Source: a virus. Taken from it: DNA of 64,000 nt. Both the position numbers and the translations under genes were made by a program. Location: positions 62,001-126,000 of IMG/VR virus record IMGVR_UViG_3300010885_039075. One strand, 5' to 3'. This document shows, one piece after another, positions 5,348 to 47,940 of the stretch (position 1 is the first letter of the stretch; each line of letters starts with the position of its first letter). Below the pieces are notes generated by a model. It saw only the letters and a program-made list of their open reading frames with translations. It searched no databases and had not been told where the DNA came from.

Positions 5348-5358
5348 TCCCTTTTAGT

Positions 5359-5432: not shown

Positions 5433-5464
5433 AATTTTGAATAGCAAAAATAAGTAATAATATT

Positions 5465-5540
5465 GCCCTTATAGCTCAGCTGGTAGAGCAACTGATTTGT
5501 AATCAGTAGGTCCCGTGTTCGAATCATGGTGGGGGCACCA
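5465..5540 (+). tRNA. tRNA-Thr (anticodon TGT)
   Basis: It has acceptor GCCCTTA / TGGGGGC with two G-U pairs, anticodon loop TTTGTAA within ACTGA/TCAGT, T-loop TTCGAAT and encoded ACCA. Confidence 0.93.
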
Positions 5541-6620: not shown

Positions 6621-6621
6621 T

Positions 6622-7068: not shown

Positions 7069-7069
7069 T

Positions 7070-7852: not shown

Positions 7853-7853
7853 T

Positions 7854-7929
7854 GGGGGTGTAGCTCAATTGGGAGAGCGACTGGTTTGCAACCAGTAGGT
7901 CGCGGGTTCGATCCCTGTCACCTCCACCA
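7854..7929 (+). tRNA. tRNA-Ala (anticodon TGC)
   Basis: It has acceptor GGGGGTG / CACCTCC with one G-U, anticodon loop TTTGCAA within ACTGG/CCAGT, T-loop TTCGATC and encoded ACCA. It begins 1 nt after the desaturase stop codon. Confidence 0.95.
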
Positions 7930-7948
7930 TTTACTATAAGGAGCATAT

Positions 7949-8092
7949 ATGTCAAAGCAAGAAGATACTTTAAACAAGGCATATGGCAATATGCCCCGAG
8001 AAATAGGTTTTTGGTTTGATGCAGATTGGATCAAAACTCCACGTGGAGTTAGGTACTACTGGATCAAGATAAAAAGGTATTTTACAAGATAA
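7949..8092 (+). CDS. Small protein between tRNA genes, function unknown
   Basis: This 47-residue ORF with a strong ribosome site (AAGGAG, 8 nt before ATG) lies between tRNA-Ala and tRNA-Val. It starts MSKQEDTLNKAYGNMPREIG and ends in a basic aromatic stretch (YYWIKIKRYFTR). The good Shine-Dalgarno and exact fit between tRNAs favour a real gene. No family recognised. Confidence 0.6.
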   Translation: MSKQEDTLNKAYGNMPREIGFWFDADWIKTPRGVRYYWIKIKRYFTR

Positions 8093-8094
8093 TA

Positions 8095-8170
8095 GGAAGT
8101 TTAGCTCAGATGGTAGAGCGTCTGCCTTACACGCAGAATGTCGGCGGTTCGATCCCGTCAACTTCCACCA
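8095..8170 (+). tRNA. tRNA-Val (anticodon TAC)
   Basis: It has acceptor GGAAGTT / AACTTCC, anticodon loop CTTACAC within TCTGC/GCAGA, T-loop TTCGATC and encoded ACCA. Confidence 0.95.
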
Positions 8171-8176
8171 AATTAT

Positions 8177-8252
8177 TCCCTGATAGCTCAGTTGGTAGAG
8201 TAACGGACTGTTAATCCGCTGGTCGCTGGTTCGAACCCAGCTCGGGGAGCCA
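8177..8252 (+). tRNA. tRNA-Asn (anticodon GTT)
   Basis: It has acceptor TCCCTGA / TCGGGGA with one G-U pair, anticodon loop CTGTTAA, T-loop TTCGAAC, discriminator G and encoded CCA. This is the standard bacterial tRNA-Asn plan. Confidence 0.95.
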
Positions 8253-8271
8253 TATTTTAAAAGGAGTCGAT

Positions 8272-8469
8272 ATGATTATCAGTGACAAAGCAGGTTATAA
8301 GTTGTACTGCGAAGTTCGTAAATTAAACGTTGCCCCATATGACAACCATGTTCGAATTTTTACAACTTATGCATGGGCCCGTAATCCAGATGCAGAGCAG
8401 AACAAACTAGAATTAGTTATGTCTGACGCAGAGTTAGCGGCACTCAAACAAGCATTGACTGCTGTTTAA
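8272..8469 (+). CDS. Small protein, function unknown
   Basis: This 65-residue protein has an AAAAGGAG ribosome site. A predicted beta-rich first half (YKLYCEVRKL, VRIFTTYAWA) is followed by a terminal helix, MSDAELAALKQALTAV. It follows the tRNA cluster and ends with stop codons interlocked (TTAA) with the convergent oxygenase gene. No family recognised. Confidence 0.6.
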   Translation: MIISDKAGYKLYCEVRKLNVAPYDNHVRIFTTYAWARNPDAEQNKLELVMSDAELAALKQALTAV

Positions 8470-9233
8470 ACCGGCCATAGTATGGCCTGCTCTTTGTATT
8501 TTTCAGCACTACGTTTGATTAAATCTTCGGTGAGTTGATTAATTCTATTTGGCATGACTCTATTTAACTTGTCGCCAAACAACAATGTGAATCTTCTGCG
8601 CTCAGGTGCTTTGGTCACTGTGGCATGCAATGCTCTAATATTGTTCAGGAAGAAACATTGATTTTTACTGACAATGTTGCAGGTTAAATCTTCTTCTTGA
8701 AATCCATTTAACGGCCTAGTAATATCATACTGCCATGGCAAGGGCCATCTATCTCTGGTCACAGATCTACGCATTATTAATGTATTGTTCACTGGATCTT
8801 CGTGTTCAATGTACATACGCAGACCCGATGTATCATCATCTCTATGCCAGTATATTCCAGTATGTGATTTTTTAACAGGCAGTAATAATACTGTGCCAAA
8901 TTCATGCACTGGTATTCCAAAAGCTGAGTTAATATACTCTACTAGTTCGGGGAACTCTTTATCAAATCCGCCTAACCATCCCACGTTGCTGTTATTTTTA
9001 TTATAATATAACATAGATAGATCCCAGGGATATTGATTTTGATCTCCTTGAAAAAAAGATTTTTTCATAAACCAAGTGCGAGCATTGGACTGAAGTTCGG
9101 CCGCGCTTGCTGATTTGTTCTTGTCAAAATTATTGACTCGATCTTGTTGCCAAAGATCCAGTTTGTCCACATCTATTTTAGGCATTGGCGGACAGTCCAG
9201 GGGTGTGTATAGTATATCAAATAAGTCTTGCAT
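8466..9233 (-). CDS. 2OG-Fe(II) oxygenase-like protein, family B
   Basis: This protein of about 255 residues starts at ATG 9233; a TTG one codon earlier is less likely. It has H-R-D-D in GIYWHRDDDTSGLRMYI, the distal His in NNIRALHATVTKAPERRRF and Arg in the last strand (FTLLFGD). The C-terminal tail KRSAEKYKEQAILW resembles that of the plus-strand gene at 3133, marking a paralogous pair. A minus-strand TATAAATA box ends 5 nt before the ATG, so the late mRNA would be leaderless. Substrate unknown. Confidence 0.65.
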   Translation of the reverse strand: MQDLFDILYTPLDCPPMPKIDVDKLDLWQQDRVNNFDKNKSASAAELQSNARTWFMKKSFFQGDQNQYPWDLSMLYYNKNNSNVGWLGGFDKEFPELVEYINSAFGIPVHEFGTVLLLPVKKSHTGIYWHRDDDTSGLRMYIEHEDPVNNTLIMRRSVTRDRWPLPWQYDITRPLNGFQEEDLTCNIVSKNQCFFLNNIRALHATVTKAPERRRFTLLFGDKLNRVMPNRINQLTEDLIKRSAEKYKEQAILWPV

Positions 9234-9238
9234 CAAAA

Positions 9239-9246
9239 TATTTATA
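9239..9246 (-). promoter_or_regulatory. T4-type late promoter box (TATAAATA)
   Basis: A perfect TATAAATA octamer on the minus strand lies 5 nt upstream of the ATG at 9233. Together with the boxes at 4306-4321 it suggests leaderless late transcripts. Confidence 0.5.
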
Positions 9247-9305
9247 GTGTGTTGTCAACGACAGACTAAGTTCATGCGTTATATATTATATACCTGGAGA
9301 TTAGT

Positions 9306-9446
9306 ATGTCGCGTCTTATACTTGCAGAAATTAGATCCTATTTAGAACTTAGGCTTAGTGCATTTGAAATAGCACAGAGATTATGTATCAATGTCAATGA
9401 TGTAAAATTGGCAATAGATAATTTAAAAAAGTTAAAAACTGCTTGA
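9306..9446 (+). CDS. Small HTH-like protein
   Basis: This 46-residue ORF starts at ATG 9306 after GGAG. The sequence LRLSAFEIAQRLCINVNDVK has the spacing of a helix-turn-helix unit (a helix with A-x-R, a turn, then a recognition helix VNDVKLAIDNL). It could be a tiny DNA-binding regulator, but a fold this short may need a partner. It is followed immediately by a perfect sigma70 promoter that overlaps its stop codon. Confidence 0.5.
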   Translation: MSRLILAEIRSYLELRLSAFEIAQRLCINVNDVKLAIDNLKKLKTA

Positions 9447-9471
9447 CTGCCTGCAGGATCTATTGTATAAT
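9443..9471 (+). promoter_or_regulatory. Consensus sigma70 promoter
   Basis: TTGACT (9443-9448), a 17-nt spacer and TATAAT (9466-9471) lie 38 nt upstream of the next start codon. The -35 overlaps the stop codon of the small HTH-like gene. Confidence 0.75.
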
Positions 9472-9508
9472 CTATGAATAAGTAATTATACAATTTTGAG
9501 GAATTACT

Positions 9509-9793
9509 ATGAGTGATGGCGGCAAAGGTAGCTCACCTCGTCCATTTAGCATTGGTGCAGAAACTTATGCATCCAATTGGGACAGAATTTTTAATAAAAA
9601 TAAGGAACAGGCTATGCAGGTAAGAGTAAAAGAAAACGCAGAAGAATTTGGCAAGTGTGGTTGCGGCCGTAGCCCAACAGGCAAGTGTATCGGCTGGCAC
9701 GGACTCAGCGAAGAAATGTATCAGCATCGAAAAATGTTGTGGATGGAAGATGAGTTCCGTCGGGACGCTGAAGAATCAAATAAAACAGAATAA
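9509..9793 (+). CDS. Small Cys/His motif protein (CDGSH-like motif)
   Basis: This 94-residue protein has one striking motif in its middle, [18 protein letters not shown]. Three Cys and one His are arranged much like the CDGSH iron-sulfur motif (C-x-C-...-C-x-G-x-H), although the spacing between the second and third Cys is one residue shorter than the textbook motif and the Asp is replaced. It may bind a [2Fe-2S] cluster or zinc. Charged helices flank the motif. It is driven by a perfect sigma70 promoter and followed at 1 nt by a QueC-like gene. Confidence 0.6.
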
Positions 9794-9794
9794 C

Positions 9795-10424
9795 ATGCAG
9801 ACGTTGACAATTAATAATGTTAACATTGACATTCATGATGGACCGATCGGTGTTAGTGTCAGCGGAGGAGCCGACAGTTCAATATTGCTGTATATTTTAA
9901 TGAAATATGCAAAAGGTGCTGTGCATGTTTATACATGTGCCAATAAAGCAAAAAGTAGAACAGCACCGCATTATGCATTAAAAGTAATTGGCAAATGTAT
10001 AGATATGTTAAATAGAAATAATGTCTATCATCATGTTGTGTTTGTCGATGAACAAACAGAAAGTAATATGTTAACGCATGGTATTGCAGATCTTAACTCG
10101 GGAAAAATAAATTATTTGTACACAGGGGTAACAGCAAATCCTCCGGTAGAAGTAACAGATAAATTTACAGATAATAGTCGTACTCGATCAGAACGCAATC
10201 CCTATGATATTAAACCATTTTACACAGGGAATAACAATAGGAATTATAGACCTTTTATAAACGTTGATAAAAAAGTAATTTCGGGTATATATAAGGAATT
10301 GAATGTATTAGACGATATATTTCCCTTGACAAGGTCCTGCGAAGATCTTATACTAACTAGTGGCCACTGCGGTCACTGTTGGTGGTGTGAAGAACGTCAA
10401 TGGGGATTTAGCAGACTAGAATAA
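9795..10424 (+). CDS. QueC-like PP-loop ATPase (7-deazaguanine pathway)
   Basis: This 209-residue protein starts at ATG 9795. It has the PP-loop pyrophosphatase signature [17 protein letters not shown] and, at the end, [20 protein letters not shown], a C-x9-C-x2-C-x2-C zinc site as in QueC (7-cyano-7-deazaguanine synthase). QueC converts CDG to preQ0 with ATP and ammonia. QueD, an earlier enzyme of the same route, is encoded at 20514. Phages use preQ0 derivatives either to alter tRNA or to modify their DNA. Some PP-loop enzymes act on other substrates, so the exact role is inferred. Confidence 0.65.
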
Positions 10425-10506
10425 TTTTTTCCACCGAGATTGAATCACAGTTAGAGTCGAGAATTTAACCGGTAGCCTAACCGTTCTAATAAGGCAAGAT
10501 TTTATT
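10425..10506 (+). other. Spacer upstream of tRNA-Pro
   Basis: This is an 82-nt non-coding stretch with a short hairpin (CGGT-AGCCTA-ACCG) and a T6 run directly after the QueC-like stop, but no stem before that run strong enough to call a terminator. Confidence 0.4.
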
Positions 10507-10583
10507 CGGAGTGTGGCGCAGTCTGGTAGCGCACCTGGTTTGGGACCAGGGGGTCCAAGGTTCGAATCCTTGTACTCCGACCA
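10507..10583 (+). tRNA. tRNA-Pro (anticodon TGG)
   Basis: It has acceptor CGGAGTG / TACTCCG, anticodon loop TTTGGGA within CCTGG/CCAGG, T-loop TTCGAAT and encoded ACCA. Confidence 0.95.
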
Positions 10584-10816
10584 ATTTACCAACACAGATT
10601 TATAGTTTTGGTAGTAGCGAAAGCGAACTACCCGGAGAAAAGAAAGAGATGAGAACTGACACTCGTTATCGCTACATGCGATTACGAACATAACTCCAAT
10701 GGCAGGCGCCTTGAAAACGCCCCGCACTTGTGTGAACTGGTCCGAACTTTATCGACTTTGTGATTTGCTAACCAGACATATACAAGTCTCTGTGCTTTGT
10801 GCATTGTGACTTGTTG
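10584..10816 (+). ncRNA. Structured non-coding region downstream of tRNA-Pro
   Basis: There is no convincing gene for 337 nt after tRNA-Pro. Clear RNA-like structure includes a 23-nt hairpin (10610-10632) of GGTAGT/ACTACC with an inner GC stem capped by a GAAA tetraloop, an alternative pairing TACCAA 10587-10592 with TTGGTA 10608-10613 that would exclude it, GGCG/CGCC at 10705-10721, and ACAAGTC 10782-10788 with GACTTGT 10808-10814. Competing helices may mean a switch or just coincidence. It is probably co-transcribed with tRNA-Pro. Confidence 0.4.
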
Positions 10817-10847
10817 GAAATTAAGAAATTAATTTCACTGTTTTTTG
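10817..10847 (+). terminator. Candidate weak intrinsic terminator
   Basis: A perfect 8-bp stem, GAAATTAA-GAAA-TTAATTTC (10817-10836), with a stable GAAA tetraloop is followed by ACTG and six T. The stem is AT-rich, so termination may be partial. It lies just before the next promoter, where the end of the tRNA-Pro transcript would be expected. Confidence 0.45.
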
Positions 10848-10868
10848 TCCAGTTGGTTACTTGCTTTC

Positions 10869-10897
10869 TTGACTCTGTTTTAATTTTGTTGTATAAT
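10869..10897 (+). promoter_or_regulatory. Consensus sigma70 promoter
   Basis: TTGACT, a 17-nt spacer and TATAAT (10892-10897) lie 23 nt before the ATG of the next small gene, which also has an AAAGGA ribosome site. Confidence 0.75.
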
Positions 10898-10920
10898 ATT
10901 GTTAACTTAAAGGAAATAAA

Positions 10921-11094
10921 ATGACATGTAGAGGATATGATCCCAAGGCCGTTAAAATCGGTAGTTTGGTAAAAATGGCGGCATCAACTATCAGTGATCC
11001 GCACAAGCGTGGTGCTTTTATGCGTAGCTATGTGGCTATTGCAGAAGCTGAAAGTCGTCAGCGCACCGGTCGAAATAACAAAGACAAAAAGTAA
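10921..11094 (+). CDS. Small basic protein, function unknown
   Basis: This 57-residue ORF has a strong promoter and ribosome site. It starts MTCRGYDPKAVKIGSLVKMA, with predicted helices and a lysine/arginine-rich end (RQRTGRNNKDKK), as in small nucleic-acid-associated phage proteins. It lies 9 nt before the next gene, which also has an AGGAATAAAA ribosome site. No family recognised. Confidence 0.6.
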   Translation: MTCRGYDPKAVKIGSLVKMAASTISDPHKRGAFMRSYVAIAEAESRQRTGRNNKDKK

Positions 11095-11103
11095 GGAATA
11101 AAA

Positions 11104-11673
11104 ATGAACATTAGTTTACGTAAAGCTTCTGTACTGCAAAATAGCATCAATGACGCGATCAAGTCTATTAATTTGGTCACTGAAGTCAGTCTCAATGAAT
11201 TTCAAACTGTTGAACCAGAACTAGCCAAAGCAGTTATGAAATTCAAAGAAGATCTTGCACGTAAAGACACTTTGGTGTCTGCGGTCTATGAAATTCGCAA
11301 AGCCACTAGTGCGGCCAATAATCAAGTGGGTGTTGACATGCGCTTGGCAGACATTGCACACTTGGATAAACAAATCCAAAGTTATACCGCATTCATGGCC
11401 AAGGCAGTTCGAGAAGATCCCACACACATCGAAGGTAAATTGGCAAAAATTAGAAATCGTAAAGAAGACAGTCGCAGTATCTACGGCTTCGAAAACACAG
11501 TTTCTACCAGTATCTTCCAAGAAGAAGATATCAAAGGTTTTAAAATCTTGGTCAGTTTAGTAAAAAAATCTAAACAAAAATTGCAAGACGAATTGCTTGA
11601 GTTAAATGTACGCACAGAGATTGCACTCAGCGATCGTACTGTACAAATATTAACGCAAGAAGGCTTACTATAA
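11104..11673 (+). CDS. Helical/coiled-coil phage protein, function unknown
   Basis: This 189-residue protein is almost entirely helical by composition, with heptad-like stretches (DIAHLDKQIQSYTAFMAKAV, FKILVSLVKKSKQKLQDELL). No Cys or metal motif. It is downstream of a sigma70 promoter and so probably expressed early. Its stop codon is embedded in a TATAAATA box that precedes the initiator tRNA. Function unknown. Confidence 0.65.
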   Translation: MNISLRKASVLQNSINDAIKSINLVTEVSLNEFQTVEPELAKAVMKFKEDLARKDTLVSAVYEIRKATSAANNQVGVDMRLADIAHLDKQIQSYTAFMAKAVREDPTHIEGKLAKIRNRKEDSRSIYGFENTVSTSIFQEEDIKGFKILVSLVKKSKQKLQDELLELNVRTEIALSDRTVQILTQEGLL

Positions 11674-11676
11674 ATA
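11669..11676 (+). promoter_or_regulatory. T4-type late promoter box (TATAAATA) before initiator tRNA
   Basis: A perfect octamer overlaps the stop codon of the preceding gene, 6 nt before tRNA-fMet. This would allow late expression of the initiator tRNA and the gene after it. Confidence 0.45.
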
Positions 11677-11682
11677 GCATAC

Positions 11683-11758
11683 CGCGGGTTACGTCAGTGG
11701 TCAGACTGTCAGGCTCATAACCTGGAGGACGGAGGTTCGAATCCTTCACCCGCAACCA
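11683..11758 (+). tRNA. Initiator-type tRNA-Met (anticodon CAT)
   Basis: It has acceptor CGCGGGT / ACCCGCA, in which the first base C cannot pair with A at position 72. The C1xA72 mismatch is the hallmark of bacterial initiator tRNA and is required for formylation. The anticodon loop is CTCATAA within TCAGG/CCTGG (two of the three G-C pairs of cellular tRNA-fMet), and the T-loop is TTCGAAT with encoded ACCA. An initiator tRNA in a phage goes together with the IF-1 homologue at 48991. Confidence 0.9.
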
Positions 11759-24762: not shown

Positions 24763-25398
24763 TCATTGACTTTCGAAAGAATGTAAACACTGGTTCCAGT
24801 GATGTATACGATCTTCTAAGCCAATGGTACCACCATTGATTCGTTTGCTGAGTAGCACTACATCGCCTTTGTCGCAGATATCGTTTAATCTATTTTTGTG
24901 CCAGAACCAGCAGGCACTTAAAATAGCGTATTCTGGTTCAGTTAACAAATCTGGATTGTCAGCTAGAGTATCGTCGCCGAATAAGTCTCTACTACATTGT
25001 GTATAGTTACTGCGGCCTGTAATTTGTAATATGCCACGACCTCTAAATTTAAATCCGTCTCCGGTAGCTTCTGGCCCATTGCCCATTCTGCCGCTGTAAA
25101 TTTTGTTGGCAATTAACTGTGGCTTGCGCTCGTACTGCTTGGCAAGATCGTCATTGGGAAAATATTTTCCAAATAGGCCGCGTAGGCCTTTCCATCCATA
25201 ATTTAAATTTTCTTCTAGTATAGTAAAATCAGCACTTTCGTGTTGGCATTGACTGATAAAACCTGCAACCCTTGCAGGTGTAACTATATAAAATTTAGGC
25301 AGTTGTTCTGCCAATGCTTCATACCAACTGTGTGGATCTTTATTCTTGCTTATACATTTTGCAAGTTTTTCATCTGTGAAATCAAAAAGAAATTCCAT
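24763..25398 (-). CDS. GH19 endolysin (chitinase-like lysozyme)
   Basis: This 211-residue protein is a glycoside hydrolase family 19 muramidase/endolysin by its motifs: FISQCQHESADFTILEENLN (catalytic Glu in HES), IANKIYSGRMGNGPEATGDG, FKFRGRGILQITGRSNY, and ACWFWHKNRLNDICDKGD. It cuts the glycan strands of peptidoglycan. No signal peptide is seen, so release would depend on a holin. Start at ATG 25398 with AGGAGA ribosome site. First gene of the minus-strand lysis operon, read from a CTAAATAG late box. Confidence 0.9.
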   Translation of the reverse strand: MEFLFDFTDEKLAKCISKNKDPHSWYEALAEQLPKFYIVTPARVAGFISQCQHESADFTILEENLNYGWKGLRGLFGKYFPNDDLAKQYERKPQLIANKIYSGRMGNGPEATGDGFKFRGRGILQITGRSNYTQCSRDLFGDDTLADNPDLLTEPEYAILSACWFWHKNRLNDICDKGDVVLLSKRINGGTIGLEDRIHHWNQCLHSFESQ

Positions 25399-25429: not shown

Positions 25430-25539
25430 ATGTTTTTTGAAATCAATAAACTGAGTACTTAATACTAAGGGTTGTAATGATTAAACTTGTGTATTACACC
25501 ACTAACTAAGACTGTAAATATAATTAAGGAGTGTCTCGT

Positions 25540-26022
25540 ATGAAAAAGTCTATGATTCTAATAGGTATTTTGTCAATTTTAACAAATGCGTATTCAGCTG
25601 AATTGCAACATAGTTTTAATAGTCCAGCGTTTAGTGGCGTTGGATATAGTAGTCATGTGCTGACTATTAAACAACTAGAAGATCAGCAAAAAGAAAAAAA
25701 TAAGGCAGCGGCAGATGCTTTAAAAGCGGCCGCTGAAAGAGATGCCGCAAACACCCCACAGGCAAGATTTCAAGCTAGTTTAGAAACAAGAATTTACAGT
25801 GAACTAGCAAAACGTATCAGTGACAGTTTGTTTGGATCAACTACTAGTGCTCCAACTTGTACCCCATTGAGTGTTGGAGGTCCTTGCGGAGATATTGACA
25901 TCGGTGGACAAAACATTACTTGGAGTATTGTTGGAAATAACATTGTTGTTCGAATAGTAGATATGAATAATCCAAACAATTACACAGAATTAACAATGCC
26001 ATATGCGGCATTTAAGATATGA
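25540..26022 (+). CDS. csgF: Curli assembly factor CsgF
   Basis: This 160-residue secreted protein starts at ATG 25540; an in-frame GTG at 25531 abuts the AAGGAG ribosome site and is too close to it. It has a signal peptide (MKKSMILIGILSILTNAYSA), then the CsgF-type beginning ELQHSFNSPAFSG with the S-x-x-F pattern that binds CsgG in the E. coli complex, a helical Ala/Lys-rich linker, and a C-terminal domain with RIYSELAKRISDSLFG, ITWSIVGNNIVVRI and D-x-x-N-x-x-x-T-E-L. CsgF forms the second constriction of the CsgG pore and anchors the nucleator. Followed at 10 nt by csgG. Confidence 0.85.
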   Translation: MKKSMILIGILSILTNAYSAELQHSFNSPAFSGVGYSSHVLTIKQLEDQQKEKNKAAADALKAAAERDAANTPQARFQASLETRIYSELAKRISDSLFGSTTSAPTCTPLSVGGPCGDIDIGGQNITWSIVGNNIVVRIVDMNNPNNYTELTMPYAAFKI

Positions 26023-26032
26023 AAAGATATAA

Positions 26033-27145
26033 ATGATGAAAAGAACAGTTTTATCCTTGGCCGTAGTAGCAATTTTAACCGGGTGTGCCACTGGGTCCGC
26101 AGTTAGAGAAAAAATGACTGGTAATCAGTTTGATGAACCCGTTATAGAAACTAGTAAGTTTTTGAAAAAGGAACAGAATAAATTAGCACCCCCTGCTGGC
26201 GGACCAATCGCTGTGGCTGTTTATGGATTTACAGATAAGACAGGCCAACGCAAGTCAATGCCTAACATTGCCAGTTTAAGTTCAGCAGTTACACAGGGTG
26301 CTGAAAGTTATCTTATTAGGGCACTACAAGAAGCCGGTGATGCAAGATGGTTCATGGTATTGGAACGTGTTGGCTTGGATAACCTAATCAAAGAGCGTCA
26401 AATGATTAGACAAGCCCGTGAACAATATCAAGGTAAAGATGCTAAACCTTTACCACCAATGGTGTTTGCAGGTATCATCATTGAAGGCGGCATAGTTGGC
26501 TATGATAGCAATACATTAACAGGTGGATCAGGTGTTCGTATATTCGGCATAGGAGCCAGCACACAATATCAAAGTGATACTGTCACAGTTACATTGCGTA
26601 CAGTCAGTGTGGCCACAGGAGAAATTTTAACAACAACCACGGTAACTAAAACTGTATTAAGCTATATGGATAAAATTACATTATTAAGATTTATAGGTGA
26701 CGGAACAGATTTAGGTGCAAATGCCACTGCTCTTGAAGGAGAAATTGGCGGTAGCATTAATGAAAGTATAAACAAAGCAATTGATGTAGCAGTTCAAGCC
26801 GCGGTGATTAATACCATACAAGAAGGTGTGAGAAAAGGCCACTGGGCTTTCCAGGAAGAAAAACCTGCGGTAAAAATGCCGCCATTACCAGAGCATATTG
26901 AAAGACCTGTGACAATTTCTAACACAGAAGATGTTCCGTTAATCAAGGAGAAGAAAAATGAGTTGGTTCAAACACAAACCTCAAAAACATCCGCCACCGT
27001 TGCAGAGCCCACTGATTCATCCGCACAGAGCGAGCCCAGCAAGCCAAAAGATGATGGAAGAAACAAAACAGAAAGTTCGGCCGTTGACAACAAAAAAGAT
27101 AAAGGGTCAGAATTAAAAAGGTATTTAAAAGATGGTTCTAAGTAA
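26033..27145 (+). CDS. csgG: Curli secretion channel lipoprotein CsgG, with C-terminal extension
   Basis: This 370-residue protein has a lipobox (AILTGC, Cys18) and a full CsgG domain: IAVAVYGFTDKTGQRKSMPN, AVTQGAESYLIRALQEAG, RWFMVLERVGLDNLIKERQM, the IIIEGGIVGYDSNTLTGGSG loop, RIFGIGASTQYQSDTVTV and VATGEILTTTTVTKTVLSY. In E. coli nine CsgG copies form an outer-membrane pore that exports unfolded curli subunits. Residues from about 285 on are an extra hydrophilic, low-complexity tail (Ser/Lys/Thr-rich) not present in E. coli CsgG. Strong family assignment. Finding it in a phage is unusual. Confidence 0.93.
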   Translation: MMKRTVLSLAVVAILTGCATGSAVREKMTGNQFDEPVIETSKFLKKEQNKLAPPAGGPIAVAVYGFTDKTGQRKSMPNIASLSSAVTQGAESYLIRALQEAGDARWFMVLERVGLDNLIKERQMIRQAREQYQGKDAKPLPPMVFAGIIIEGGIVGYDSNTLTGGSGVRIFGIGASTQYQSDTVTVTLRTVSVATGEILTTTTVTKTVLSYMDKITLLRFIGDGTDLGANATALEGEIGGSINESINKAIDVAVQAAVINTIQEGVRKGHWAFQEEKPAVKMPPLPEHIERPVTISNTEDVPLIKEKKNELVQTQTSKTSATVAEPTDSSAQSEPSKPKDDGRNKTESSAVDNKKDKGSELKRYLKDGSK

Positions 27146-27188
27146 GCATGGATTTAAGAAAAATTCTTGCATGGATCTTGCTTGTGTA

Positions 27189-27212
27189 GTGTGTGGTACG
27201 AAAATCACACAC
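27189..27212 (+). promoter_or_regulatory. Leader hairpin upstream of the first curlin gene
   Basis: The 148-nt gap between csgG and the curlin gene contains GTGTGTG (27189-27195) / CACACAC (27206-27212) with a 10-nt loop, plus GGGTTTAACCC further on. There is no T-run, so it is more likely a leader or attenuating structure than a terminator. The gap may also hold a promoter for the amyloid subunits, but I cannot identify one confidently. Confidence 0.35.
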
Positions 27213-27293
27213 CCTGGCAAAATAAACAGGGTAAGTAACAGGGTTTAACCCAGGGGCTTAGGTAGAGAAAAAATAATCTATCTATGTTATAAA

Positions 27294-28100
27294 ATGAAAA
27301 AAGCGACAAAGATGTTATCAATGACTTTAGTTGGCCTTGCACTTTCTACTGCAACTGCGTATGCTATTGCACAATCTGCAACAGGCCCAAATAAAGTTTA
27401 TATCGAACAAGTCGGTAATAGTAATACGGTTACTATTGAACAAGTCGGTGGCACCAACAACGTTGGAGGAACAGCATCAACTGCCACAAATTCGATATCC
27501 GCCAGCGGCATTACAACTGTTGCACCGGCAGCACCTAGCTCAACTAACTATGCTACAATTACAGGCAGTTCTAATACGCTGTCATTGATACAACATGGCA
27601 ATGGTAATGGAGCACAATATAATATCCAAGGTAATAACAATTCATATTCTAGTACTGTCACTGGGATCAACAATTTAACTAGACTCTCTATTGGAGACAC
27701 TAATAATGCTAGTAATTTGCGTAACACAGTGACAGAAACAATAACTGGAGATACCAATTTAGTACTTCAACAGTTAGTAGGCAATGATATTACAAGTACT
27801 ATATCGATAACTGGAAATTTAAATCAAATCACTAAAGAATTGAAAAGTTCAAATGGTGTAAGTGATATTAGTATCACAGGTAACAGCAACGTATTAAATA
27901 TTCAACAGATTGACTCAGCTGGTGCCAATGGTCATAATTTAAAGGAAGTTATTGCTGGTAGTTTTAACAGCATTACAACTCAACAACAGGGTATGAATGA
28001 TACTACTGTGGATATTCGAACAACAGGTAGCAATAATACTATAACAGTTAGAACAAGTAGTACTGCTATTGTCGGAGCGGCAACTGCCATTGTGAGGTAA
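27294..28100 (+). CDS. Curlin-repeat amyloid subunit (CsgA/CsgB-like) 1
   Basis: This 268-residue secreted protein has signal peptide MKKATKMLSMTLVGLALSTA with cleavage near residue 25. The mature part is made of about nine imperfect 20-25-residue curlin-type repeats of the form beta-strand, turn G-N/S-x-N, strand ending Q-x-G: KVYIEQVGNSNTVTIEQVGG, ITGSSNTLSLIQHGNGNG, ISITGNSNVLNIQQ, TGSNNTITVRTSS. Such repeats stack as cross-beta amyloid. It is much longer than E. coli CsgA (about 150 aa). It would be secreted through the CsgG encoded just upstream. Whether it is the major fibre or the nucleator cannot be told. Confidence 0.85.
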   Translation: MKKATKMLSMTLVGLALSTATAYAIAQSATGPNKVYIEQVGNSNTVTIEQVGGTNNVGGTASTATNSISASGITTVAPAAPSSTNYATITGSSNTLSLIQHGNGNGAQYNIQGNNNSYSSTVTGINNLTRLSIGDTNNASNLRNTVTETITGDTNLVLQQLVGNDITSTISITGNLNQITKELKSSNGVSDISITGNSNVLNIQQIDSAGANGHNLKEVIAGSFNSITTQQQGMNDTTVDIRTTGSNNTITVRTSSTAIVGAATAIVR

Positions 28101-28103
28101 TTC

Positions 28104-29204
28104 ATGTGGCGATTATTTCTCTTTCTTTTAGTGTTACAAAATACTATCGCCATTGCCGGCGATAGTATTGGTGTTGTAGCAGACAATAAAGGATCTGCCT
28201 GTGAAGTGCTAAGAGGAAAAAATAAATCTCCAGGACTTAAAGGTGCAAGCATAGAAAGTATGGACACATATTTGACACAGGCTTGTTCTAGTAATATTAC
28301 ATTCAAAGACGATACCAAAGTTAAAATAACCGAAAACTCTAAATTAGTCATTGACGACTTTGTCTACGATCCTAAAAAATCAGATGCCGGCAAACTGGCC
28401 ATGAAAGTAACCATGGGCACAGTACGTTATGCCAGTGGACAAATTGCTAAAAATAATCCGCAACAAGTTGCAGTTAACACACCCACTGCTAACATTGCTG
28501 TTCGTGGCACAGACTTTTCAATGACAGTGGACGAAACGGGACAGAGCCTAGTTGTTCTTTTACCTAGTTGTAAAGACGAAAGCCAGCAAAAGAAATACGA
28601 ATTAGAAGAAAATCTTTGTAAAGTAGGAGCTATCGTTGTTTCTAATGGCGCAGGTGTAGTTACATTAGACAAAGCATTTGAAGCAACTTATATTACCAGC
28701 TTTGACAGTAGACCAACAGCACCTGTGGTTATCAATACACTAGAAAGTAAAATTAATAATAACTTAATTCTTGTTAGGCCACACGAAGTTGAACGTGCTA
28801 TACGTGATAATACTGGTCGCACAAAGAAAGAAGAGCTAGATGCAGAAATTGAATCAGAAGCCGCAAGGCGACTAGCGCAGAGAGTTAAAGAATCTGCAGA
28901 TGACATCGAACGTGCTAGAATCTTAGCATTACTTGAGGCCGCAGGAAAAACAGGCTGTAATCCAAGTACTGGCATCTGTATAAGTTGGACAAATCCAGAT
29001 GCCAGTGACATTCAGTTAAAAGGTAAAGGTATCGCCTTTCGTTCTAACACAGATCATTATGCCGAAGTAAAAACACAGGGCTATGAATCTAATACATCAA
29101 TAACTATTGTACATGATGATGCCAGTGCCAGTGAATTAATTGGAGCAGGTGGTGGTGGGAATAGTGTTTATATAAAACAAAATAACGGTGTATTAAGAAG
29201 ATGA
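28104..29204 (+). CDS. FecR-domain secreted protein in the curli operon
   Basis: This 366-residue protein has a signal peptide (LFLFLLVLQNTIAIAG) and a FecR-like beta domain (residues 30-180), recognised by ITFKDDTKVKITENSKLVID, MKVTMGTVRYASGQ and TPTANIAVRGTDFSM. A coiled-coil helix with EELDAEIESEAARRLAQRV follows. The C-terminal 90 residues are strand-rich and end GGNSVYIKQNNGVLRR, which echoes the curlin repeat (NxVYIxQ). FecR domains act as periplasmic or surface scaffolds and sensors. It starts 3 nt after the curlin stop. Confidence 0.72.
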   Translation: MWRLFLFLLVLQNTIAIAGDSIGVVADNKGSACEVLRGKNKSPGLKGASIESMDTYLTQACSSNITFKDDTKVKITENSKLVIDDFVYDPKKSDAGKLAMKVTMGTVRYASGQIAKNNPQQVAVNTPTANIAVRGTDFSMTVDETGQSLVVLLPSCKDESQQKKYELEENLCKVGAIVVSNGAGVVTLDKAFEATYITSFDSRPTAPVVINTLESKINNNLILVRPHEVERAIRDNTGRTKKEELDAEIESEAARRLAQRVKESADDIERARILALLEAAGKTGCNPSTGICISWTNPDASDIQLKGKGIAFRSNTDHYAEVKTQGYESNTSITIVHDDASASELIGAGGGGNSVYIKQNNGVLRR

Positions 29205-30337
29205 CAAGATTTTTATCAATATTTTTTTTATTATTTGCACTATGCTCCACTGGACAAGCAACAGGGCTTGTTGATTTAAAGTTTGGCCAAGCACAAATTG
29301 CAGACAGTCAGTGGAATGTCAGTGCTTGTATGTACACTACCACTTGTCAAATCTACAGTAAGAATCCAGGCACAGCATACAAAATTCCCTGGACCAGCGG
29401 CCGCATAACTTGGGCCGCAGGCGACTACATAGCATTCATTGATAACTCGCAAAAGGACGCTGGCAATCCTTGGCTGGCTGTACACTACAGAAGTAACGGT
29501 ACTGCCATAGACAACATGGGTACTGGGCATATTATTAACATGGGCAACGACTTTTTCTTTTTTGTAGGCAACGATAATAACACTGGTCAACTATTCAGTA
29601 TGACCACTGGACTATCTGGATCAGCCGGGGTTACGTGGACTGGTACATTGAATCCAACAGCCGCTCAGGTCAATGCGTATGCCGCCAATGGTAGTACCAC
29701 TCCCTTGGCCGCTGGTCAAACAGCACAGCCGGCCGGGCCGCCACCTTTATGTTGCGGAGGTAGTGCTTCACCGTTTAATGCAACTACTGCAAATATGTCT
29801 AAGGTTTTAGGATTCTCTTCTCGCACAACTAATGATAGTAAAGTATATATTGATCAAATAGGCAATGCAAATACTATTACAGTAGAACAGTCGGGAACCA
29901 AGCAAAATTATGTTGAATACAACGGCAACGGCTCTTCTAATAATACTACTATTACCCAACGAGGAAATTCATCCACTCAAATAAACTATACAGAAACAAA
30001 TATATCGGGTAATAATAATACTGTTAACATTATTCAGCAAAGTACCGGCGGCGGTAAAGGTGCCTTTGTTAATATTCAAGACAGTAACAACACAGTTGCT
30101 ATCCAGCAAAAGGATAGTGGCAGTCACTATGCCGAAGTTACACTAAGTGGAGGCAATAAAAATGTTGACATTACTCAACAGGGAAGTGCTGGTCATATGG
30201 CCAAGGTTAGTCTGTCAGGGCTAGCACAAGACTTGAGTTTAACCCAAAGCGGTAATACACAACAATTTTATTCGATTACCAGTAACTGTGCTTCGGCCGG
30301 CGGATGTGCTAAGATTACTGTGAATCAAGGGCAATAA
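29201..30337 (+). CDS. Curlin-repeat amyloid subunit (CsgA/CsgB-like) 2, with N-terminal domain
   Basis: This 378-residue secreted protein has a signal peptide (FLSIFFLLFALCSTGQATG), a globular N-terminal domain of about 180 residues rich in Trp/Gly/Cys, then at least six curlin-like repeats: KVYIDQIGNANTITVEQSG, NNTTITQRGNSS, ISGNNNTVNIIQQS, DSNNTVAIQQKDSG, LSGGNKNVDITQQG. The first repeat is nearly the same as that of curlin 1, so the two subunits could co-polymerise. The extra domain might dock the fibre to the cell or serve as nucleator. It overlaps the FecR gene by 4 nt. Confidence 0.82.
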   Translation: MTRFLSIFFLLFALCSTGQATGLVDLKFGQAQIADSQWNVSACMYTTTCQIYSKNPGTAYKIPWTSGRITWAAGDYIAFIDNSQKDAGNPWLAVHYRSNGTAIDNMGTGHIINMGNDFFFFVGNDNNTGQLFSMTTGLSGSAGVTWTGTLNPTAAQVNAYAANGSTTPLAAGQTAQPAGPPPLCCGGSASPFNATTANMSKVLGFSSRTTNDSKVYIDQIGNANTITVEQSGTKQNYVEYNGNGSSNNTTITQRGNSSTQINYTETNISGNNNTVNIIQQSTGGGKGAFVNIQDSNNTVAIQQKDSGSHYAEVTLSGGNKNVDITQQGSAGHMAKVSLSGLAQDLSLTQSGNTQQFYSITSNCASAGGCAKITVNQGQ

Positions 30338-30340
30338 ATA
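30333..30340 (+). promoter_or_regulatory. Late-type box (AATAAATA)
   Basis: It overlaps the stop codon of curlin 2 and lies about 20 nt before the next gene's start, with an AAGGAG ribosome site in between. Confidence 0.3.
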
Positions 30341-30359
30341 CTTTTCTAAGGAGAACACA

Positions 30360-30662
30360 ATGAAACAATTATTAGCTTGTGTTCTACTATTACCTGTTTT
30401 GGCTTACCCAAACCCCGTAACAGTAGATAAAGAATTGATATGTGATACGCCTACCAATATTATTGGACCTCTTACTACAACATACGGAGAATTTCCAATT
30501 TGGACCGGACAGGACACCGTTAGTAAATATGCACTATTGGTCAATGAAGAGACCAAGTCTTGGACTCTGATTCAGTTCAATGAATCTGCGGCCTGCGTAC
30601 TAGGTGCAGGGAATAACAGTAAAACTACGAAAAAAGAGCCAAAAGCCAATGTTAAGCTGTAG
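30360..30662 (+). CDS. Small secreted protein of the curli operon
   Basis: This 100-residue protein has a signal peptide (MKQLLACVLLLPVLAYPNP) and a mature part with two cysteines (ICDTPTN, ESAACVLG) that may form a disulfide, then strands YALLVNEETKSWTLIQF and a Lys-rich tail. The size and position would suit a periplasmic accessory such as CsgE, but I see no CsgE motif and do not claim it. AAGGAG ribosome site. Confidence 0.6.
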   Translation: MKQLLACVLLLPVLAYPNPVTVDKELICDTPTNIIGPLTTTYGEFPIWTGQDTVSKYALLVNEETKSWTLIQFNESAACVLGAGNNSKTTKKEPKANVKL

Positions 30663-30828: not shown

Positions 30829-31377
30829 ATGTCAGAAGTAAAATTAGATAAACCGTTGTCTCGTAGCGAACGCGAAGCATTAATTAAAGATAAAGCCGGA
30901 TTAGTCATTGTTATTATGGCGTTGTTCATGGCTATTACTACTTACTTTGCTAATAGTTTCAGTGGTGCTGTATTAAAGAATACACTAAAAGCCACAGACA
31001 CATACGCATTTTTTCAATCCAAATCTATCAAACAGGCCATTGCCGAGGGTCAGCGTGATGACTATATAACTCGCGGTGAACGAGTCAAGGCTGAAAAACT
31101 ACAGGCAAAAATTGATCGCTATGAAACTGATCCTGAAAAAGGTGAAGGTAAAAAAGAATTATTGGCCAAGGCCCAGGGCTATGAAAAGGCCAGAGATGAA
31201 GCTAGTAAACACAGCCCATGGTTAACATTTGCCAGCATGGCATTCCAACTAGCAATCGTTTTATTATCTGCCAGTATTCTTGCAGTTAACAATAAGATGT
31301 ATAAGGTAAGTTTATATGTTGCTGTTGTGGGTATTCTTTTGTTAGGTCAAGGAATTTGGTTACCTTTTAGCCTATGA
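30829..31377 (+). CDS. DUF4337-type membrane protein
   Basis: This 182-residue protein has a first transmembrane helix after an N-terminal charged part (LVIVIMALFMAITTYFANSF), the family-like sequence LKATDTYAFFQSKSIKQA, a charged middle coil and two C-terminal helices (FASMAFQLAIVLLSASILAV, YVAVVGILLLGQGIWL). The DUF4337 family is of unknown function. It overlaps the cyclase gene by 4 nt, so the two proteins may act together at the inner membrane. Confidence 0.7.
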   Translation: MSEVKLDKPLSRSEREALIKDKAGLVIVIMALFMAITTYFANSFSGAVLKNTLKATDTYAFFQSKSIKQAIAEGQRDDYITRGERVKAEKLQAKIDRYETDPEKGEGKKELLAKAQGYEKARDEASKHSPWLTFASMAFQLAIVLLSASILAVNNKMYKVSLYVAVVGILLLGQGIWLPFSL

Positions 31378-33425
31378 AAAAAATATTGCTAAGTCCGTGG
31401 ACAGCACTAATAACCCTTGTGCTGGTGTTAGGTATAAGAATCGCAGATCCTACATTTGTTGAAAGTGTAAGACTGCGTTATTTCGATACATTGATCGCTG
31501 GAAAAACACAAACAGAAAACAATATCTATACAGTGAATATAGATGAAGCGGCACTGGATAAATTAGGCCAATGGCCGTTACCGAGGGTTAACTATGCTGA
31601 AATTATTGAAGACCTGTATCATCGCAACGCTGGCCTTGTTGTTCTCAATGTGCTTATGGCTGAGCCTGATCGTACTGGTGGAGATAGGGATCTTGGCGCC
31701 ATACTTAAAAACTATCCTGTTGTCTTAGTCAGTATACCTAATTCTAAAAATAAAAATAATCCACGTGTGCCAGGTAGTGCTGTATTAAATCCCGAATGGT
31801 TGGATCAAATAGTCACATATCCTGGATTGATTGCCAACATACCGCAATTAGAAAATAATGCCGCAGGTGTGGGCATAGTAAACACATTACCGGAAGTAGA
31901 TGGTGTTAATCGTCGTGTACCCCTGGTGGTTGCTGTCAACGAAAAGTTATACCCAGGATTAAGCCTAGAGACGTTGCGTGTTGCCGCTGGGGATTCTACT
32001 TTTCAAGTCAAGCTATTTGAAGGTGGTGTTGAAAAAATGCGTATTCCAAAGTTTGGTCCTATAGCCACAGACAATTTAGGCCGCGTATGGATTGATTGGA
32101 GTCAGCAAAGTAAATCTGTGTCATTGACTGATTTGCCCAAAGACTTTGGTGGTGCCATTGTTGTAGTAGGACCAACAGCCGCAGGCATTAGTAATCCTTT
32201 GCCAACGAGCATAGGTGCGGTATTTCCGCATCATGTGCAGGCCGCGGTTATAGCAACTTTGGCCAACGGTGTTATAATACAAAGACCCGACTGGGCAGAT
32301 GGCGCAGAAATAATTGCTATATTAATAGCGGGTATTATTTTATTATTTTTAACAAGGTGGACTTATCTTGGACTTGCTAGTACTGTTGCTATTGTTGCTC
32401 TTTCTATTGTCGGCAGTAAGTTTGCTTATTCAAATTATCTTTATCTTCTTGATTCCACTTTGTTGGTCAGCGGCATTATTTTGGTTGCTTTACATGCTTA
32501 CGGGGTCAAGTTTGTAAGTGAGTTTTTACAAAAACAACAGATTAAAAAACAGTTTGGAACTTACCTAAGTCCAGATCTTGTAGCACAACTACAACGTCAG
32601 CCTGAGTTATTAAAGCTGGGCGGCGAGAGTAGAGAGCTAAGTATTATGTTCACTGATGTTCGTGGCTTTACCACAATTAGTGAACACTATGGCAAGGATG
32701 TACAAGGACTTACTAAAATTATGAATCGTTATATGACTGCTATGACAAAAAAGATTTTAGAAAATAAAGGTACATTAGACAAATATATAGGCGATGCACA
32801 AATGGCATTTTGGAATGCACCATTAGACAATGGCAACCATGCTAAAGATGCAGTACGCACAGGCCTGCAGATGTTGGAGAGTTTGGATGAATTTAATCGA
32901 GAAGTTACAGCAGAAGGCATACCAGCTTTTGGTATGGGTCTTGGAATTAATAGTGATACTGTTGTGGTGGGTAATATGGGAAGTGATCAGCGTTTTGACT
33001 ATACTTGCCTCGGTGACGGTGTTAATTTGGCTTCCAGACTGGAGGGCCAGAGTAAACCGTACGGTGTACGAATCGTACTTGGTACGAAAACTGCTGAATA
33101 TGTAAAGGATGAATTCTTTACTTTAGAATTAGATTGTATTGCCGTTAAAGGCAAGAAAGAAGGAGTTAATATACACACCGTGTTGATAACAGATGCCGGC
33201 GCGATGCCAGGTTATCTAATAGCCAGAGAAACTCACAATGCAATGTTGTCTGAGTATCGAACACAACGATTCGATGCGGCTATCGAACTTTGCAACAACC
33301 TAATGGAAGAATTTGACGGACAAATGAACCATTATTATGAAAATTGGATAGAGCGTTGCAAAGAAATGAAGTCAGTTGATTTACCAAAAGATTGGGACGG
33401 AGTTTACCGTGCTACTAGCAAGTAA
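31374..33425 (+). CDS. CHASE2-domain class III adenylate/guanylate cyclase
   Basis: This 683-residue protein has an N-terminal TM (about 8-23), an extracytoplasmic CHASE2 sensor (about 25-300, with VNIDEAALDKLGQWPLPR), three TMs (about 305-385) and a class III cyclase domain (about 418-600). Catalytic features are intact: FTDVRGFTTI with metal Asp, DKYIGDAQMAFW with base-selecting Lys and second metal Asp, and YTCLGDGVNLASRLE with the transition-state Asn and Arg. It should convert ATP (or GTP) to the cyclic nucleotide on sensing an external signal. It ends the curli operon. A tail of about 80 residues follows the domain. Confidence 0.9.
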   Translation: MKKILLSPWTALITLVLVLGIRIADPTFVESVRLRYFDTLIAGKTQTENNIYTVNIDEAALDKLGQWPLPRVNYAEIIEDLYHRNAGLVVLNVLMAEPDRTGGDRDLGAILKNYPVVLVSIPNSKNKNNPRVPGSAVLNPEWLDQIVTYPGLIANIPQLENNAAGVGIVNTLPEVDGVNRRVPLVVAVNEKLYPGLSLETLRVAAGDSTFQVKLFEGGVEKMRIPKFGPIATDNLGRVWIDWSQQSKSVSLTDLPKDFGGAIVVVGPTAAGISNPLPTSIGAVFPHHVQAAVIATLANGVIIQRPDWADGAEIIAILIAGIILLFLTRWTYLGLASTVAIVALSIVGSKFAYSNYLYLLDSTLLVSGIILVALHAYGVKFVSEFLQKQQIKKQFGTYLSPDLVAQLQRQPELLKLGGESRELSIMFTDVRGFTTISEHYGKDVQGLTKIMNRYMTAMTKKILENKGTLDKYIGDAQMAFWNAPLDNGNHAKDAVRTGLQMLESLDEFNREVTAEGIPAFGMGLGINSDTVVVGNMGSDQRFDYTCLGDGVNLASRLEGQSKPYGVRIVLGTKTAEYVKDEFFTLELDCIAVKGKKEGVNIHTVLITDAGAMPGYLIARETHNAMLSEYRTQRFDAAIELCNNLMEEFDGQMNHYYENWIERCKEMKSVDLPKDWDGVYRATSK

Positions 33426-33534: not shown

Positions 33535-34143
33535 ATGATACGCATCATGAAACTAATAGCAGGATTGCTAGGATTGATCCTAGTATGTTGGATCATCAAT
33601 TTTACCTATGAGTATAAGATGAACAATTTACGTACTGCTGAAAAAATGAGGCCAACTAGTATAACTGCTGGAGTGAGAGAAAAGCAATTAGACTGTTTGG
33701 CACAAAACATATACCACGAAGCTGGTTATGAGCCTTTTGAAGGTAAGGCCGCTGTTGCACAAGTAACGCTGAATCGAGCCGAGAGTGGCAAGTTTCCCGG
33801 TGACATTTGCAAAGTGGTTTATCAAAAAAACATAGTCTACGACAAAGTCCTTTGTCAATTTAGTTGGTATTGCGAAGGCAAGGCCGGGATAAAACCAAAA
33901 AATAAAGAAGCATATGATCAAAGTATGGAAGCGGCAAAAAAGGTTTTACTAGAAGGATTTAGATTACCTAGTTTGCAAAATGCCATGTATTATCATGCTG
34001 AATATGTAAATCCTCAATGGAACAAAGAACGTGTGGCCAAAGTAGGTGCTCATATTTTTTACAGTGATAATCCCAGCAACTATACTAAACAGGTAGTAGT
34101 TGTAGCAACAGAAACGAAACCTAATAAAGGAAAGCAAAAATGA
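33535..34143 (+). CDS. SleB-type cell wall hydrolase, membrane anchored
   Basis: This 202-residue protein has an N-terminal TM anchor (LIAGLLGLILVCWIINFTYE) and a hydrolase_2/SleB domain: CLAQNIYHEAGYEPFEGKAA with the catalytic Glu, VAQVTLNRAESGKFPGDICK, LCQFSWYCEGKAG and NAMYYHAEYVNPQW. SleB enzymes are lytic transglycosylases that cleave peptidoglycan. With an early-type promoter it is perhaps not for lysis but for envelope remodelling during infection (inference). An internal in-frame ATG is less likely. Confidence 0.85.
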   Translation: MIRIMKLIAGLLGLILVCWIINFTYEYKMNNLRTAEKMRPTSITAGVREKQLDCLAQNIYHEAGYEPFEGKAAVAQVTLNRAESGKFPGDICKVVYQKNIVYDKVLCQFSWYCEGKAGIKPKNKEAYDQSMEAAKKVLLEGFRLPSLQNAMYYHAEYVNPQWNKERVAKVGAHIFYSDNPSNYTKQVVVVATETKPNKGKQK

Positions 34144-46317: not shown

Positions 46318-47940
46318 GTGCAATCTATTCTAGCAGACTTAAATGAAAAAATAATTATCAGTGTGTATCTTCGAAGGGATAAACATGAAAACGGAATGAC
46401 TCTTAAAGAATATACAGACGGTGTTATTGCAGGTACACAGCCGGTATTAGATCATGATCAATATGTTTATCAATTTGGTGCGCTTGAAGATGAAATTGAA
46501 TTAGTAGAGCAGTGGGCAAGGTCTAATTTATTACTGGTTGTTGAATCCGATAAAGGTATGGCTGTGGTGAAAATAGAAGGTAGTGTTAAACAGTTCAATA
46601 CATTTTTCAAAATTCAATTATTAACAGTCACCGATGGTCCAAGAACATATCTTACTCATGAAGACACTATAACTGTTCCCTTAGAAATCGATGCTGTTGT
46701 AGAATTAGTATTAGGATTTGATGAATCTCTTACTGTACAACCAAGAATTAGAAATTTTTCTGTCAGTGATGCAGATCCTAGTCCGGCTCCAAACACGTAT
46801 CCTAGCAAATATCCAGTGACCCCGCTTCAAGTTGCCACTGCATATCGAGTTCCTGCAGGGGACGGCGCAGGCCAAACTATTGCAATCATAGAATTCCAAG
46901 GTAGCGGATGGAATCAATCCGATGTGAATAGAACATTTACACAAGTAGGACTAACACCTCCCACAGTTACAAACTATTCTGTAGATGGTGCAACATTTAC
47001 CACAGTCAGCGATGCTGAAACAATGATGGATATTTATTGTGCAGGCGCCGTTGCGCCAAAAGCAAAAATAGTAGTTTATTATGCTCCGAATACTAGTCAA
47101 GGTTTCTACGACATGGTAAATGCCATTGCCAATGACAATGTAAACAATCCCAGTGTGTTAACTGTTAGCTGGGGATATGGTGGAGATATCAGCGACTATC
47201 TGGCCGTGCCATTTCAGTCTTGTATTGCTAAAGGTATTTTAACATTTTTTTCCTCGGGCGATGATGGCGGGAATAATTGGCAGGCAGAATATCCCGCTAG
47301 TAGTCAGTATGTAATTGCCAGCGGCGGGACCAGTATTTTTTTAAATAATGATAACACATTAAACACAGAAACTGTATGGTCTGGCAGCGGTGGTGGTATC
47401 AGCACTTATAGCTCTAGGCCAACTTGGCAAGCAAGTCCTACTTTATATTACACAACATATAATAAATCTGGACAAACAGGCAGTCCCACAGTAGTTACCA
47501 GAAGAGGTGTTCCAGATATATCAGCACCTGCAGATCCTTATACTGGATATACTTTTTATGTAAATGGAAGTTTAAATCAAAATGGCGGTACCAGCGCGGC
47601 TGCGCCATTTCTTGCTGGAGTATTTGCTAGATTAAATCAATTGTTAGGAAGAAGAATACAGTTCGGTGAATTAATGACTTTATTATATGGAAATAGCAAT
47701 ACAGTAACAGATATTACTACGGGCTATAATAACTATTCATGGCATGGTTTAGGTAGCGTTAATGGCTATGCGGCCACAACAGGCTGGGATGCGGCCACAG
47801 GTTTGGGTAGCCCAAGAGCGGATATAATCTACAATTTATTATCGTCAACACGTATAGGTGCTACATTTCCTAAACAAAACTATGGCACTAGACCCGCAAC
47901 TGGGGCGGTTTATCCTAGATTAAAGTCCACAGTAAGATAA
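46318..47940 (+). CDS. Sedolisin (S53) family serine protease
   Basis: This 540-residue protein starts at GTG directly after the fibre stop. A pro-kumamolisin-like prodomain is at residues 1-130. The catalytic domain contains the Glu/Asp pair in SDAETMMDIYCAGAVAPKAK, the oxyanion-hole region SSGDDGGNNWQAEYPAS, and the Ser in NGGTSAAAPFLAGVFARL. Sedolisins are acid-acting endopeptidases, usually extracellular. In a phage structural module it could process a fibre or digest host surface proteins. No signal peptide is seen. Confidence 0.87.
   Translation: MQSILADLNEKIIISVYLRRDKHENGMTLKEYTDGVIAGTQPVLDHDQYVYQFGALEDEIELVEQWARSNLLLVVESDKGMAVVKIEGSVKQFNTFFKIQLLTVTDGPRTYLTHEDTITVPLEIDAVVELVLGFDESLTVQPRIRNFSVSDADPSPAPNTYPSKYPVTPLQVATAYRVPAGDGAGQTIAIIEFQGSGWNQSDVNRTFTQVGLTPPTVTNYSVDGATFTTVSDAETMMDIYCAGAVAPKAKIVVYYAPNTSQGFYDMVNAIANDNVNNPSVLTVSWGYGGDISDYLAVPFQSCIAKGILTFFSSGDDGGNNWQAEYPASSQYVIASGGTSIFLNNDNTLNTETVWSGSGGGISTYSSRPTWQASPTLYYTTYNKSGQTGSPTVVTRRGVPDISAPADPYTGYTFYVNGSLNQNGGTSAAAPFLAGVFARLNQLLGRRIQFGELMTLLYGNSNTVTDITTGYNNYSWHGLGSVNGYAATTGWDAATGLGSPRADIIYNLLSSTRIGATFPKQNYGTRPATGAVYPRLKSTVR

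Follow-up and report, generated by a model that had tools for sequence, protein, structure and literature searches.

Five adjacent curli-type genes begin at position 25,540 of the 64,000-nucleotide stretch analysed here (the window), which covers positions 62,001–126,000 of the 141,699-base virus record IMGVR_UViG_3300010885_039075. The original prediction had read six open reading frames between 25,540 and 30,662 as CsgF, CsgG, two curlin-repeat proteins with a FecR-domain protein between them, and a small secreted protein. All six are present on the plus strand, and the five named identities are borne out by Pfam searches (Table 1). The start of the proposed unit also stands, at the csgF ATG (our scans used the start at 25,543, one residue shorter), but its end does not: the conserved unit extends to a CHASE2-adenylate cyclase, which is one of its members. 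The operon is real and conserved.

Table 1. Features of the curli-type unit and of other parts of the window (window coordinates)
Feature	Position	Strand	Description
tRNA genes	2810–11758		nine genes
GH19 endolysin	24763–25398	−	upstream of csgF
TAAATA	25515–25520	+	core of T4-type late-promoter-like motif TGTAAATATAA; 25 nt before csgF ATG
csgF	25540–26022	+	secreted pore-associated curli chaperone homologue; PF10614 1.6e-7; phrog_35372 6.2e-27
csgG	26033–27145	+	predicted outer-membrane curli channel lipoprotein; PF03783 2.9e-46
Curlin-repeat protein 1	27294–28100	+	signal peptide; PF07012 4.2e-5, above cut-off; N-x-V-x-I-x-Q strands
Secreted FecR-domain protein	28104–29204	+	PF04773 5.6e-10
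Curlin-repeat protein 2	29201–30337	+	PF07012 0.015, below cut-off; head and curlin solenoid in model
Small secreted protein	30360–30662	+	accessory; without Pfam match
DUF4337 membrane protein	30829–31377	+	inside unit; PF14235 1.9e-30
CHASE2-adenylate cyclase	31374–33425	+	PF05226 1.4e-39; PF00211 9.3e-19
Cell-wall hydrolase	33535–34143		downstream of unit
Cysteine-desulfurase-like protein	37969–39156		matches SspA/DndA models of phosphorothioate systems (7e-28)
Subtilase (S8)	46318–47940		kumamolisin-type activation domain; adjoins tail-fibre-like gene
Holin-like gene	60874–61542		

The predicted products include the components of type VIII (curli) secretion: a CsgG channel lipoprotein, CsgF and secreted curlin-repeat subunits. 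The N-terminus of CsgF has the F..P.F.G pattern common to E. coli CsgF, and the CsgG profile matches the solved E. coli channel (2.5e-67). The lipobox noticed earlier in CsgG reads LTGC, and its cysteine (C18) is invariant in 15 homologues; at the other end of the protein is a charged extension of about 95 residues. The CsgG constriction has altered residues, which might have pointed to a new pore function; we discarded that idea, since bacterial CsgG proteins also vary at these positions. Curlin-repeat protein 1 (curlin 1) is the candidate main fibre subunit. The second curlin assignment holds as well: relatives of curlin 2 exceed the PF07012 cut-off, and its structural model contains 14 evenly spaced strands (residues 212–376, pLDDT mostly 80–94) and a separate β-rich N-terminal head (residues about 30–165). 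The best viral structure matches of this model are phage proteins named 'Curlin associated', and a fold search in the PDB gave nothing significant. Homologues of the small secreted protein lie near the module in some relatives only (L006, L007, L008, L017 and L020). Gene homology supports the proposal of a phage-made curli-type amyloid exporter.

CsgE, listed as missing by the original prediction, was not found in nine phage records, and neither CsgD nor CsgC was seen in the phage module. We treat CsgE as not required because the pelagiphage and alphaproteobacterial modules also lack it (PMC9599517).

The contig had been taken to be viral, and hallmark-type genes are indeed found around the operon. 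The record encodes a T4-type clamp loader, ClpA, tail-fibre-like proteins, a holin-like gene and endolysins, all but the endolysins lying beyond the cell-wall hydrolase. The closest clamp loaders (53%) are those of the PA5oct/Paride group of Pseudomonas jumbo phages; for ClpA the closest counterparts are in Phosso, Atu_ph07 and PA5oct (41–45%). A near-DNA search of 22–46 kb against phages gave a 61-base tail-fibre match in Klebsiella phages as its sole result. Related contigs link the module to virion genes: one of 280,019 bases carries the operon together with a gene for a T4-type major capsid protein, and a T4-type capsid protein is also encoded on a 44-kb contig with the module. Elsewhere the window carries tRNA genes, a cysteine-desulfurase-like protein and a subtilase (Table 1). 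Two phage-encoded TctC-type periplasmic substrate-binding proteins, both in the same virus record as the window (L042:9473–10453 and L039:18759–19676), hint at a possible Burkholderiales host. Judging by their sample numbers, several of the related contigs may come from freshwater lakes.

Many large T4-like phages of a separate lineage carry the module. A search of other viral contigs, as had been suggested, found CsgG relatives on 34 further IMG/VR contigs, with the whole module on most contigs of sufficient length. In the CsgG tree a single clade (100/100) unites the 22 phage rows from the window's lineage. CsgG of alphaproteobacteria, Burkholderiales and E. coli falls outside a wider group that takes in every phage and phage-like row; support for this group (89/97) narrowly misses the program's star. 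Most results of a genome scan with the CsgG alignment were small MAG contigs bearing the phage-type module; such modules (L043–L049 and L053) were binned into bacterial MAGs assigned to Pelagibacter, Rhodobacteraceae, Flavobacteriaceae and Pirellulales. On one 'Pelagibacter' MAG contig of the phage CsgG group a terminase adjoins the module, and we therefore regard these contigs as phage-like rather than as hosts. The analysis leaves out an unannotated csgG-bearing record of 1,499 bases labelled 'Salmonella phage' and does not count a weak curlin-like match at L042:11206–12450 (23%, without a Pfam match). Some relatives vary the arrangement. In L033 and L035 csgF–csgG lie on one strand and curlin–FecR–curlin–cyclase on the other, and CsgG is more distant (48%). 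CsgG of L008 (9001–10305) and L020 (9001–10215) ends in a bacterial SH3 domain, possibly a cell-wall-binding tail.

The gene identities and the exporter reading of the original prediction stand. It had omitted the CHASE2 cyclase, and the set is, contrary to its statement, already described in phages. The window's order of genes, csgF, csgG, curlin, FecR, curlin and cyclase, is also that of Pelagibacter phage HTVC008M and Methylophilales phage Melnitz, and the full type VIII system of marine phages was described in 2020–2022 (PMC7029224, PMC9004378, PMC9599517). CsgF and CsgG were reported in pelagimyophages with a proposal of 'sibling capture' (PMC7029224); a role in lysis was proposed and csgA and csgB were stated to be absent (PMC9004378); and curlin genes, FecR and cyclase were identified, with arguments for transfer between phage families and an alphaproteobacterial source (PMC9599517). 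Aggregation ('sibling capture'), superinfection defence and lysis are discussed across these papers as candidate functions. Searching the literature by title and abstract, we found no paper on the module in jumbo or freshwater phages, and PMC9599517 does not contain the terms promoter, PA14, discoidin, adhesin, CHASE2 or lectin.

The operon is probably expressed late in infection, judging by a motif ahead of csgF. Of 30 distinct loci, 28 have TAAATA upstream of csgF, mostly as TAAATACT, whereas permuted hexamers of the same composition occur there in a mean of 3.6 and a maximum of 9 of the 30. Related csgF loci share descent, so this count measures conservation and not 30 independent events. 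Across the record, TAAATACT is enriched 10–60 nt before genes (6 of 10 sites; permuted 8-mers, mean 0.8 and maximum 4). PMC9004378 quotes the T4 late promoter as TATAAAT, which the motif resembles.

Strong purifying selection acts on csgF, csgG, curlin 1 and fecR. Their dN/dS values are 0.02–0.16 (0.05–0.09 for curlin 1), some with saturated dS, and close pairs agree. The head of curlin 2 follows a different course. Two pairs of phages about 96% identical in curlin 1, FecR and CsgG have curlin 2 heads that are 35–50% identical and curlin arrays that are 82–91% identical. Conversely, heads match across otherwise distant phages (window and L002, 73%, against 58–59% for curlin 1 and FecR). Curlin 2 of many relatives bears F5/8 type C domains, one of which matches in sequence a GH92 mannosidase domain (7nsn) and another a domain of an alpha-N-acetylglucosaminidase family protein (4a42); HTVC008M has PA14. 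The window's own head is of a type without a recognised fold, and its weak similarity to designed 'Pizza' propellers, spanning about 50 residues, was judged to be chance. Head exchange of this kind fits an adhesin or another exposed part that binds.

The FecR-domain protein is built like a secreted protein with a curlin-type end. Its model comprises a signal-peptide-like helix (residues 2–17), a FecR domain (22–197), a coiled coil (241–279) and a C-terminal β part. We considered a classic FecR anti-sigma regulator and rejected it: neither a cytoplasmic N-terminal anti-sigma domain nor a membrane segment precedes the FecR domain, and the helix runs directly into it at residue 22. The C-terminus holds the curlin-type strand NSVYIKQ, and this tail motif occurs in 29 of 31 homologues, the remaining two ending in a similar strand in a shifted register. 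Foldseek relates the model to PupR/FecR surface-signalling domains and, weakly, to 5ix9, the cell-surface anchoring domain of an antifreeze protein (E = 0.03, 30% over 64 residues).

The CHASE2 protein has the features of a class III adenylate cyclase. Its predicted catalytic domain aligns to solved adenylate cyclases (9.8e-34), with motifs at 426, 469 and 542, and we take D428, K470, D474, T544, N551 and R555 to be the candidate catalytic residues, with metal, purine and transition-state roles. FecR and CHASE2 genes are also neighbours in bacteria: of 138 FecR matches in 240 alphaproteobacterial genomes, at least 26 have a CHASE2 cyclase no more than 5 kb away, where chance would give about 0.6 if genomes are 3.8 Mb. 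In three of eight such loci inspected the FecR domain is on an RTX adhesin; two of these three have a TolC-type gene, and one of the two also HlyD and ABC genes. By sequence, one of these adhesins matches 5ix9 (4e-4). At the true bacterial csgG loci inspected we found neither FecR nor cyclase matches. We infer that FecR and CHASE2 cyclase can form an adhesin-linked anchoring and sensing pair, which in the phage module is joined to curli. The phage records searched yielded no cAMP receptor, and cAMP would therefore act through the host.

Our best explanation, which we consider an even bet, is that the phage uses its type VIII module to make an adhesive surface fibre late in infection. A T4-type late promoter would drive the operon, CsgG and CsgF would form an outer-membrane channel, and exported curlin 1 would assemble into an amyloid fibre. 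Curlin 2, with its solenoid and exchangeable adhesive head, might cap or decorate the fibre. The FecR-domain protein could anchor or nucleate the fibre at the pore through its curlin-like tail and talk to the CHASE2 cyclase, which would signal fibre loading to the host through cAMP. As it died, the cell would turn into a sticky particle keeping neighbouring hosts or progeny close.

We favour the adhesive fibre because of homology and the presence of the module in HTVC008M, Melnitz and the 34 viral contigs; because of the late-promoter motif and purifying selection on csgF, csgG, curlin 1 and fecR; because of head exchange, the F5/8C and PA14 domains of relatives and the solenoid model; and because of the curlin-like FecR tail and the bacterial FecR/CHASE2 neighbours, some on RTX adhesins. 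It is weakened by the failure to find CsgE (nine phage records) or a cAMP receptor (phage records searched), by a window head without a recognised fold and by the weak link of phage FecR to 5ix9. Moreover, Melnitz cultures showed no clumping (PMC9004378). Tentatively, the module may go further and be an adhesive organelle, in which a late amyloid fibre bears recombining sugar-binding-type heads, a FecR–curlin plug sits in the CsgG pore, the cyclase signals fibre loading through host cAMP and lysing cells capture new hosts. If true, this would put host-targeting diversity on the surface of the infected cell as well as on the virion tail.

Several other explanations have to be weighed against a late adhesive fibre. 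One, an assembly chimera of bacterial csg genes fused to phage DNA, corresponds to the finding that the original prediction said would overturn it, a host–phage join at the operon edges. Nothing in favour of a chimera came to light. G+C is 0.38–0.40 throughout, without a shift at those edges, and the module recurs in 34 other contigs, making a chimera very unlikely, indeed close to negligible; contigs with a T4-type capsid gene carrying the module, a CsgG that falls in a phage-specific clade, the phage-type promoter motif before csgF and dN/dS far below 1 all argue the same way. Uptake of nutrients or cofactors through an ungated CsgG pore (proposed in PMC7029224 and PMC9599517) would suit the failure to find the CsgE gate in nine phage records; it leaves csgF, two curlin genes and head exchange unexplained, and we hold it decidedly improbable.

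The two remaining proposals are less favoured than a late adhesive fibre. In superinfection exclusion, fibres or the pore would coat the infected cell and block competing phages (PMC9599517). A surface coat is plausible, but it does not need exchangeable heads, and the late-promoter motif fits the end of the cycle. T4 imm, sp and like exclusion genes act early. Late motif and exchangeable heads thus favour adhesion or capture over early exclusion, which we think rather unlikely. Late expression would equally suit lysis timing, with CsgG/CsgF reused as a gated pore or pinholin (PMC9004378), and the unit is flanked by the GH19 endolysin and the cell-wall hydrolase. However, the record already has a holin-like gene and endolysins of its own, and selection constrains curlin 1 and FecR as tightly as csgG. 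Furthermore, holins work in the inner membrane and CsgG is an outer-membrane channel. We consider a role in lysis timing quite improbable. The late motif, the constraint on fibre genes, the exchangeable sugar-binding-type heads and the FecR–curlin/CHASE2 pairing separate these proposed roles and make the function of the module testable.

Known systems share parts of this module. In Sinorhizobium meliloti (S. meliloti), CHASE2 cyclases answer an outside protein via outer-membrane NsrA, and cAMP acts through Clr (PMC13001267). This NsrA, CyaD1/D2/K and Clr pathway likewise places an outer-membrane protein upstream of a CHASE2 cyclase; it differs in serving a plant signal and having no curli, and the link to the phage module is one of analogy. 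Alphaproteobacterial FecR/CHASE2 loci with RTX adhesins and type 1 secretion, like the phage module, pair a secreted FecR-domain protein with an adjacent CHASE2 cyclase, but they are chromosomal, and an RTX adhesin and TolC/HlyD replace curlin and CsgG. The csgBAC–csgDEFG genes of E. coli have the CsgG channel, CsgF and curlin repeats in common with the phage module. By contrast, the phage module adds FecR and cyclase, its curlins are longer and have heads, no CsgD or CsgC was seen in it, and CsgE was not found in the nine phage records.

The closest counterpart is the pelagiphage type VIII module (HTVC008M, Melnitz and HTVC023P-type podophages), which has the same csgF–csgG–curlin–FecR–curlin–cyclase order and a CsgG of the same phage group. 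The window belongs to a different large-phage lineage, however, with most proteins 33–47% identical, DUF4337 and small secreted genes inserted before the cyclase, a CsgG tail and different curlin 2 heads. A histidine kinase gene before csgF is a feature of the podophage form (PMC9599517), and the record of the myophage HTVC008M names none next to csgF; none was seen at the window's unit, and the GH19 endolysin on the other strand lies upstream of csgF instead. To the earlier reports we add the separate lineage, the late-promoter motif, curlin 2 head exchange, the curlin-like tail of FecR and the bacterial FecR/CHASE2 neighbours. Known from marine pelagimyophages, the module is also carried by this further lineage of large T4-like phages, in a phage-adapted form distinct from bacterial csgG.
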